36,813 nt of DNA from an uncultured Bacteroidota bacterium (GTDB lineage: Bacteria > Bacteroidota > Bacteroidia > Bacteroidales > CG2-30-32-10), in the NCBI GenBank assembly GCA_903847905.1, contig CAINEZ010000559.1, positions 1-36,813 of the forward strand, read 5' to 3'. A model generated the notes under the pieces. The model saw only the letters and a program-made list of their open reading frames with translations, ran no database searches and was not told the origin of the DNA. Positions 4,138-17,566 of this stretch are shown piece by piece; the stretch's first letter is position 1; every line of letters starts with the position of its first letter. The position numbers and the translations under genes were made by a program.

Positions 4138-4260
4138 AACCACTAAGGCACTTAGAACACTTGGATTCACTGAGAAATACAAAAAAATATTCTTAGTGCC
4201 TGCCTTGCCGCCTGCCTGCCGGTAGGCAGGTTTCTTAGTGTACTGTGTGTCTAAGTGGTA
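4138..4260 (+). repeat. Word-repeat array A (CACTAAG), inverted arms with GC palindrome
   Basis: The left arm repeats a word like CACTWAG about every 8-10 bases (CACTAAGG, CACTTAGAA, CACTTGGATT, CACTGAGAAA). The right arm carries the same words on the opposite strand (CTTAGTG twice, CTAAGTGG at the end). The right arm is interrupted at about 4200-4230 by a GC-rich near-palindrome (CCTGCCTGCCGGTAGGCAGG). The stretch begins 12 bases after the dnaX stop and fills most of the gap to the M16 gene. It could fold into a long imperfect hairpin and act as a transcript end, but lacks a T tract. Confidence 0.75.
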
Positions 4261-15813: not shown

Positions 15814-16293
15814 TTATTCATTTTCCCCTTCAGGTACCTGAATCGAAGCTTTAATTGTCAGCACTTTTGCGTTGGGTTGAGTATTTGAAATGAGAGTAAC
15901 TGTTTTATTCTGAAAACCTTTTTTCCCTTCAGTATTAAAGGTTACATCAATAGTTCCTTCGCCGTTAGGAGCAATAGCGGTTTTTGGATAATCAGCTATT
16001 GTGCAACCACAACTGCCTCTTGCATCAGTGATGATTAAATCGGACTTACCCACATTTTTGAATTTAAATGAGTATGAAACTTTTTCACCCTGAATAATTT
16101 TTCCAAAATCATGGATTTCTTCTGCAAACTGAAATACCGGAAGGTTTGATGTGTCGGAACTTCCATCAGCAGTATTAGGATTTTTAACAATATCGGACGA
16201 CAATGACTTATCGGCAGAATTATTATTACATGAAATGAAAATAAAAAATACTGATGTAAAAATAAAACACGCAATTATTTTATACGATCTCAT
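15814..16293 (-). CDS. DUF1573 domain lipoprotein
   Basis: A 159-residue exported lipoprotein. From the Met at 16293 the signal peptide is MRSYKIIACFIFTSVFFIFISC with a lipobox-type FISC (Cys22). The region after residue ~50 is a DUF1573 Ig-like fold (ASH/MSP-like): FxFAEEIHDFGKIIQGEKV, SYSFKFKNVGKSDLII and GSCGCTIADYPKTAIAPNGEG, the typical CGCT phrase. A Met at 16353 in the same frame would add 20 residues, but a good promoter box (16318-16325) lies between the two, so the shorter start is preferred. It usually sits between nusB and yajC in this phylum, as here. Precise function unknown. Confidence 0.9.
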   Translation of the reverse strand: MRSYKIIACFIFTSVFFIFISCNNNSADKSLSSDIVKNPNTADGSSDTSNLPVFQFAEEIHDFGKIIQGEKVSYSFKFKNVGKSDLIITDARGSCGCTIADYPKTAIAPNGEGTIDVTFNTEGKKGFQNKTVTLISNTQPNAKVLTIKASIQVPEGENE

Positions 16294-16317
16294 AAACGAA
16301 GTTATTAAAGAAGACTG

Positions 16318-16346
16318 CAAATATAATAAATAATTAAATTGGCAAA
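16318..16346 (-). promoter_or_regulatory. Promoter of the DUF1573-yajC-ybbR-coaE series
   Basis: On the minus strand: -33 TTTG (16346-16343), 17 bases, then -7 TATATTTG (16325-16318), with the ATG 25 bases further on. This fits the Bacteroidota sigma-A consensus fairly well and indicates that the genes after nusB have their own promoter. Confidence 0.55.
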
Positions 16347-16380
16347 AAAGCAATTACTTAGCATCTTGTATTGTGTTTTT

Positions 16381-16584
16381 ACCACATAATTCCGCATGTG
16401 CGGGATAGTTACATGGATTTCACATATACATGGTAAATTAATTTTTTAGTAATGCGGAAAATTTATTTGTTAAATTATTTTGATCCTCTTTGGTTTATTT
16501 CAGCTAAACGGTTTTATCTGCATTAACTACTATGTGTCATTCTATGTTTCTATTGTGGCCCTGCCTTGCCGGCAGGTATGTGGT
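16381..16584. repeat. Word-repeat array F (ACCACATA/ACATAGA), inverted arms each holding a palindrome
   Basis: This 328-base gap between nusB and DUF1573 holds two inverted arms of about 50 bases, ~90 bases apart. The left arm (16381-16432) reads ACCACATA, then a palindrome CCGCATGTGCGG (16392-16403), then ATAG..ACATGGA..CACATA. The right arm (16528-16584, reverse strand) reads ACCACATA, then a different GC-rich palindrome (16560-16576, CCTGCCTTGCCGGCAGG), then ATAGAAACATAGAA..CACATAG. No reading frame of note lies in the gap; the central ~90 bases are AT-rich. Confidence 0.75.
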
Positions 16585-16621: not shown

Positions 16622-17566
16622 TTACATCAAACCTCTGCCGGTTTTTTTTATCATATCTGACTTGCGAAAATCATCAATCAGTTTATCTAATATTCCATTT
16701 AAAAATACGCTGCTTTTAGGCGTACTGTACATTTTAGAAAGATCAATATATTCATTCAATGTAACCTTTACAGGAATAGAGCAGAATTCAAGCAATTCAC
16801 AGATAGCCATTTTCATCAGTAAAATATCCATCATTGCAATTCGTTCAATATCCCAATTAACTGTTTTGTCAGATATTATTTTTCCGTATTTTTCCGAGTT
16901 AATAATGGTCTTACTGAAAAGGTTAATTGCAAATTCCTTATCTTCTTTATCAATAAACCACTCCAGTTCCGAAAAAGTTTTATCAACTGTATCTTGCTTG
17001 CTCATTCTGATAATCTTGATAAGGATCATATTTACAATATCAATATCATCCACCCAGAAAATGCTTTTATCTTCGTAATATTGTATTAAGGGTGGGAAGT
17101 CAGCAATATATTTCTTGATCAGGACAGCAACAATTTCTTTGTCTTTTTCAAAATTATTCTCTTCCGAAGACATGTATTTCTCATATTCGGGAGTAATCTT
17201 AAAATTACTGAATACACGACGTGCAATATCATTATCTCCTATCCATGAAATATTTCTTTTTTTATAAAGATCATTCAGGGTAGAATTCTTTGAAATAGCT
17301 GATATAAAAAGGTTATTAATAAATCTAAGATTGGGGTTACGTTCCTGATTGGAGGGTAAATGTTTTTGTTTGGCATCCTCTGTTTGTTTTTGGGCTACAT
17401 CAAACACTTCCTTCAGAAATGAAATTTGATATAAAAATAATTCATAATACCTGTTGATACTAAGCATCAACTCTTTCTCGCCTGCACCTATACTATCAAA
17501 CCCTGCATTCAAATACCCATACAATGCCTGCATTACTTTTATCCTGATATGCCTTCTGCTTAACAT
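16622..17566 (-). CDS. nusB: Transcription antitermination factor NusB (long form)
   Basis: A 314-residue NusB. NusB binds boxA RNA with NusE (S10) during rRNA transcription. The C-terminal ~130 residues are the canonical helical domain (NWDIERIAMMDILLMKMAICELLEF ... VKVTLNEYIDLSKMYSTPKSSVFLNGILDKL), while the first ~180 residues form the N-terminal extension seen in Bacteroidota, opening MLSRRHIRIKVMQALYGY. E. coli NusB is about half as long, so the length is a phylum trait rather than a fusion. It heads the minus-strand series and is divergent from the DUF3276 gene. Confidence 0.95.
   Translation of the reverse strand: MLSRRHIRIKVMQALYGYLNAGFDSIGAGEKELMLSINRYYELFLYQISFLKEVFDVAQKQTEDAKQKHLPSNQERNPNLRFINNLFISAISKNSTLNDLYKKRNISWIGDNDIARRVFSNFKITPEYEKYMSSEENNFEKDKEIVAVLIKKYIADFPPLIQYYEDKSIFWVDDIDIVNMILIKIIRMSKQDTVDKTFSELEWFIDKEDKEFAINLFSKTIINSEKYGKIISDKTVNWDIERIAMMDILLMKMAICELLEFCSIPVKVTLNEYIDLSKMYSTPKSSVFLNGILDKLIDDFRKSDMIKKTGRGLM

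Follow-up and report, generated by a model that had tools for sequence, protein, structure and literature searches.

Between nusB and a gene for a DUF1573 protein, the window (the whole 36,813-nucleotide stretch of DNA from an uncultured Bacteroidota bacterium that was analyzed) carries a 204-bp stretch with mirrored arms, and the features are listed in Table 1. Sequence comparison revealed that the two arms pair as inverted repeats with ACCACATA at each outer end. The left arm reads ACCACATA, ATT, CCGCATGTGCGG, and GATAGTTACATGGATTTCACATA on the plus strand, and the right arm reads ACCACATA, CCTGCCGGCAAGGCAGG, and GCCACAATAGAAACATAGAATGACACATAG on the minus strand; direct reading thus bore out the claim of the first-pass annotation that mirrored arms on opposite strands carry two different palindromes. 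The stem of CCGCATGTGCGG comprises five pairs around TG, and that of the right palindrome, CCTGCCTTGCCGGCAGG (16560-16576), comprises six pairs around a loop. The annotation had further placed both palindromes at the same point, which proved not to be exact. The right palindrome adjoins ACCACATA, and the left core CCGCATGTGCGG begins 3 nt further in; the extended left palindrome ATTCCGCATGTGCGGGAT does adjoin ACCACATA, at 16389. Each family has its own target, with CCGCATGTGCGG lying between AT dinucleotides.

Table 1. Positions of the features described in the window
Feature	Position	Strand	Basis
DUF1573 gene, flanking; likely ATG start at 16293	15814..16353	-	PF07610, E 6.6e-33
ACATAG word-array element, gene-less, mirrored arms, in the nusB-DUF1573 gap	16381..16584	.	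Sequence, arm pairing, copy alignment
Left-arm terminal word ACCACATA	16381..16388	+	Direct sequence reading
Family-2 palindrome in its extended form, ATTCCGCATGTGCGGGAT, with the core CCGCATGTGCGG at 16392-16403	16389..16406	.	Reading and copy contexts
Left-arm words GATAGTTACATGGATTTCACATATA	16404..16428	+	Reading and aligned copies
Remnant of GxxExxY gene 3' end, CCGCATTACTAAAAAATTAA; related copies ..FYxALPKS*	16438..16457	-	Copy comparison
Remnant of GxxExxY gene 5' end, ATGCAGATAAAACC; related copies MQITQKYLDE	16510..16523	-	Copy comparison
Right-arm words GCCACAATAGAAACATAGAATGACACATAG	16530..16559	-	Reading and aligned copies
Palindrome of family 1, CCTGCCGGCAAGGCAGG, between ACCACATA and G(A/C)CACAATAG	16560..16576	-	Reading, pattern search, joint scan
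Right-arm terminal word ACCACATA	16577..16584	-	Direct sequence reading
nusB, flanking gene	16622..17566	-	PF01029, E 4.8e-20
Self-nested family-1 palindrome, the second in the window, in a CACTAAG array	4199..4230	.	Phase AAA|CACTAAG

Copies of the element and the GxxExxY gene

The word ACCACATA occurs 92 times in the 4.56-Mb genome to which the window belongs (44 forward and 48 reverse). Ten inward-facing pairs less than 600 bp apart were identified in this genome, against approximately 0.3 expected by simple arithmetic, and no outward-facing pair was found within the same distance; among the ten, the sequence of one (L006) looks unrelated and two (L001) have a common left end. The words are short and AT-rich, as a chance or low-complexity artefact would have them, but these counts, together with the 0 to 1 matches in the palindrome controls and the offset scan described below, refute that reading, to which we give practically no credence. 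The copies in the genome align to one another, and L003 is an intact, insert-free copy of 138 bp. The sister genus G002 harbors approximately 25 palindrome-free copies, mostly of 110-130 bp. Like MITEs, the elements are dispersed, short, and noncoding and have terminal inverted repeats; when the element ends in the window were inspected for a target-site duplication, their flanks shared TTTTT/AAAA runs only.

A single-word search with ACAATAGAAACATAG in 149 genomes returned many one-mismatch matches. Those inspected were true arrays in G000-G002, G051, and G073; the matches inspected in G004, G015, G017, G055, and G132 were not arrays of the ACATAG-element kind. In G002 and the window's genome, the ACATAG element was also found nested within a larger repeat bounded by ATCGTTTAGTTAAG / CTTAACTAAACGACAT (L255, L256, L261, L264, L005, and L041).

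The orthologous nusB-DUF1573 gap is only about 50-95 bp long and has no array in G002-G005, and in G001 it holds another insert instead of the ACATAG element. Because the gap has no array in the sister genera, comparison of these sequences indicates that the element most likely entered it in the lineage of the window. The different insert in this gap of a sister genus (L105 / L134) has GAAACTGTTTTGA at its ends, and a GTGTCGAAG..CTTCGACAC palindrome lies inside it.

Absence from the sister genera also speaks against the hairpin arms acting as a terminator or functional RNA module in this gap. Compared with its shuffles, the transcript folds better (z -2.97), as such a module should, but inverted arms alone suffice for folding of this kind (L003, z -3.4). 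A terminator search and a search of Rfam revealed no terminator-like site and no known RNA family at the element, and we regard such a role as very improbable.

The comparison of copies pointed to a protein-coding origin. Intact GxxExxY genes (PF13366 / TIGR04256) lie between ACATAG arms in G051 and G073, and the genes encoding the GxxExxY proteins nearest to the query (74-88% identity; G073, G051, G114, and G559) are likewise located between ACATAG arms; loci with an intact gene inside such arms include L271/L304/L407, L273/L406, L408, and L409. According to the readings of L271 and L273, the intact proteins start with M(I/E)ITQKYLDEL and end with VNE(I/L)YAALPK. Short copies in the window's genome retain only the first and last codons of the gene, and that in L003 reads MQITKEYLDEFYIALPKS*, which is the protein start joined to its end. 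In the window copy, which is more decayed than L003, the gene is lost and no intact GxxExxY gene was found, yet both gene ends remain. Judged from these sequences, the arms are the ends of a GxxExxY gene element, and the window copy, which has the ACATAG arms in common with the family but not the gene, is a gene-less, decayed relic.

The association extends beyond the ACATAG word. The inverted match between upstream and downstream flanks exceeded that of all 200 shuffles in 20 of the approximately 33 GxxExxY loci tested, and the same comparison within the ACATAG-like subfamily yielded such a match for 20 of the 30 loci. GxxExxY genes in general thus tend to sit between inverted word arrays. 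Arrays of ACATAG accompanied proteins with 74-88% identity to the query, those of CACAATAG/CACATTAG mostly proteins of about 63-69%, and those of CATTAAG, CACTAAG, CACTTAG, or CATATAAG proteins of around 57-62%. Across L406-L435, L284-L313, and L400-L405, the array word shifts with GxxExxY divergence (ACATAG, CACAATAG, CATTAAG, CACTAAG, CGCAAAG, and CGCTGAT).

Probable entry sites of the two palindrome families

The two palindromes are unrelated to each other, as the first-pass annotation had maintained, and belong to two independent interspersed families. The family-1 pattern CCTGCC..GGCAGG yielded 110-125 matches in the window's genome, whose reversed control gave none, and no more than 36 pattern matches in any of 59 relatives. 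For family 2, CCGCATGTGCG yielded 17 matches in the window's genome versus 1 in the control.

We examined the surroundings of family-1 copies away from ACCACATA, scoring an array wherever three or more words lay no further than 50 bp away on either side and using 20,000 random intergenic points as the background. The results revealed that 12 of 54 copies were in arrays, compared with 2.5% of the random points; the number of independent cases is lower than the number counted because some of the arrays are homologous to each other. No word was found near half of the copies (27 of 54). The words that host family 1 in this genome are ACATAG, CGCAAAG, CACAGAG, CACAAAG, and CACTAA, and removing the palindrome restores the word, with the joint, marked here by a vertical bar, between A and G (CACATA|G, CGCAAA|G, CACAAA|G, CACTAA|G, and ACACA|G). 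The joints observed were CACATA|GACACAATAG (L002, L004, L010, and the window), CGCAAA|GACGCAAAG (L035), CGCAAA|GACAGCAAAG (L090), GCAAA|GATTGCAAAG (L009), ACGCAAA|GAATGCGCAAAG (L073), CGCAAA|GACACAAAG (L013), CACAAA|GGTATCGCTAAG (L076), ACACA|GAGCCACAGAG (L078), CTACA|GAGAACACAAAG (L080), and CACTAA|GGCTCAAAG (L084). The family-1 target is CRCNNA^G, and it is not duplicated. When the motif was scanned over the joints, offset 0 accounted for 10, or for 6 once the ACATAG copies were set aside, and offsets -3 to -1 and +1 accounted for none. Four copies, apparently homologous, have the further word phase AAA|CACTAAG. Along the words, the order is nearly always CCTGCCTRCC and then GGCAAGGCAGG; the exceptions are L035 and L397, in which the palindrome has the opposite orientation.

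Elsewhere in the class, joints of the same kind were found in G155, G214, G274, G311, G335, and G441, where only the next G and the surrounding array count as independent evidence because the search demanded CRCNWA upstream. The recurrence of the A|G joint across different words and genomes, together with the restored words, supports a preferred entry site. The suggestion in the first-pass annotation of a preferred site for GC-rich palindromes consequently holds for family 1, at the A|G step of CRCNNAG-like words and also in distant genomes, but not as one position common to both families.

The ACATAG arms themselves provided empty and filled copies. In the relatives, the gap from ACCACATA to ATAGnnACAT was empty, at 5-6 nt, in 27 arms of G002, 2 of G001, 7 of G051, and 5 of G073, a few longer matches having been set aside as unrelated. 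Inserts were hence absent from 41 of 41 arms in the related genomes, an outcome that the first-pass annotation had named as counting against its suggestion, but at least G001, G002, and G051 nearly lack CCTGCC palindromes to insert (2, 1, and 1 matches, respectively, versus 110 in the window's genome). In the latter genome, 9 matches had gaps of 0-8 nt, whereas those with an insert measured 16 nt (L007, L038, and the left arm of the window), 23 nt (the right arm of the window), and 27 nt (L002 and L010); in L004, a nested 42-nt palindrome fills the right arm and 269 nt fill the left arm. The L004 right-arm and L010 values were taken by reading the sequences.

Family 1 is an interspersed, GC-rich, self-nesting palindrome and resembles GC clusters in these traits. 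Concentric nesting at its own center, up to three shells deep, was observed at L036 781, L053 9822, L079 1511, and L088 1505 and 2282, among other loci. The second family-1 palindrome of the window is flanked by two plus-strand ORFs. At L013 8942, the loop of the family-1 palindrome at CGCAAA|GACACAAAG holds a third palindrome-like stretch (GTCAGCCTGAG.. with TCGAAG), and at L086 494, L003 6596, and L100 1565, CATTGCGAG..GAAGCAATC repeats host both palindrome families near one position.

A manual count of the 14 full family-2 copies revealed AT to the left in 11 and to the right in 10. Copies following GAT in CACTGAT/CGCAGAT arrays were found in L090, L091, L092, L095, and L099, and the GAT| or AT..AT context was present in L090, L091, L092, L093, L095, L099, L100, and the window. 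Where the window holds the family-2 palindrome, the empty left arm of L002, ACCACATAGAT|AGTTACATAG, has the same GAT. The flanking AT dinucleotides may represent either a duplication of 2 bp or a portion of a repeat unit of 18 bp. In L004 (3987-4250), an element of approximately 240 bp lies inside CCGCATGTGCGG with the 10-bp direct repeat CGCATGTGCG on its flanks; its ends are CATA..GTCAAG, it contains internal GGGCTAAAGCCC-type palindromes, and its left ends also occur at L001 4485 and L048 2380.

Possible routes of entry and related systems

Taken together, we consider it likely that the locus holds a decayed copy of a GxxExxY element that was later entered by two unrelated, site-selective families of mobile palindromes. 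The 204-bp stretch would be an inserted, gene-less copy with inverted ACATAG arrays as its ends, and both tiny GC-rich palindromes would have entered it after its insertion. Family 1 (CCTGCCTRCCGGCAAGGCAGG and variants) would enter between the A and G of the word, lengthening the site by no more than the palindrome itself and without any duplication; family 2 (YCCGCAYRTGCGGR) would enter at AT, typically after GAT at the end of a word, leaving AT on both sides. We infer palindrome insertion from the empty copies within the genome and from the restored words.

The common position could alternatively reflect descent, each palindrome having entered a master element once and been copied along with it. 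Both palindromes do occur in the window and L004, family 1 is common to four right arms, and several filled G155 arrays resemble copies of a single larger repeat; the filled ACATAG copies may indeed go back to a single ancestral insertion that was carried along as the element spread. The same joint, however, is present in arrays built from unrelated words (CGCAAAG, CACAGAG, CACAAAG, and CACTAA) and in genomes of different orders, and one insertion cannot explain this distribution unless arrays change words wholesale. Inheritance as the general explanation therefore seems unlikely to us.

Under the preferred reading of independent, site-selective entry, the palindromes would act as nonautonomous mobile hairpins, with an enzyme supplied in trans; a plausible route would be a nick at the word followed by a single-stranded hairpin intermediate. 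Single-strand HUH chemistry (PMC6006769) would account for the orientation and the missing duplication. The palindromes might accordingly be REP units moved by Y1/HUH transposases of the RAYT or IS200/IS605 type, which act on single-strand hairpins in a fixed orientation without duplication. The hairpin size, the one preferred orientation, and the absence of a target duplication resemble this chemistry (PMC6006769), and the window's genome contains four PF01797 genes. The flanks of these four genes, however, hold other short palindromes, with CCTGCC..GGCAGG at the ends of 0 of 4, and L322 has just one CCGCATGTGCGG nearby. Flank column counts were variable and revealed no conserved tetranucleotide 5' of the hairpin. 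We rejected a RAYT origin on the evidence of the flanking palindromes, and no motor gene for the palindromes was identified. Movement of REP units by Y1/HUH transposases is thus an explanation that we would not favor, although it has some appeal.

An attractive alternative would be that the GxxExxY protein itself nicks its word and thereby provides the entry site. More speculatively, and with considerable doubt on our part, GxxExxY may be the sequence-specific nuclease of a new class of elements whose ends are arrays of its own recognition word; word and protein would co-diverge, and an A-G nick would let hyper-parasitic palindromes enter. The cyanobacterial small dispersed repeats of Elhai et al. 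2008 are reportedly mobile units of approximately 21-27 nt that can sit inside other repeats; they are from a different phylum than the present host.

Nesting mobile GC-rich palindromes are already known in organelles (PMC4478555, PMC2670323). Yeast mitochondrial GC clusters such as GC42 are likewise mobile, short, GC-rich palindromes, which merge with one another, become shuffled, and have AG as a short preferred target (PMC4478555); they differ in being mitochondrial, in the target-site duplication reported for them, which family 1 does not have, and in having no tie to gene-associated word arrays. The short palindromic repeats of Volvox organelles include palindromes within palindromes, similar to self-nested family 1, but they are organellar, and a fixed target word was not found in the portion of that report consulted (PMC2670323). 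REP/REPIN sequences with RAYT are also many-copy short extragenic palindromes with a single-strand hairpin logic (PMC3116915, PMC3733652, PMC6006769), whereas neither an association with RAYT nor a tag tetranucleotide was found here.

The open literature searched on GxxExxY / PDDEXK_3 contains almost nothing on the family, and the papers searched overall yielded neither a fixed phase in the words of different arrays nor a link between arrays and GxxExxY. The present findings yield an exact and testable rule for the targets of very small mobile palindromes in bacteria. They also show that an uncharacterized, many-copy GxxExxY family sits in inverted arrays whose word changes with the protein, and this link between word and protein offers a direct handle on GxxExxY binding and on the spread of both arrays and palindromes.
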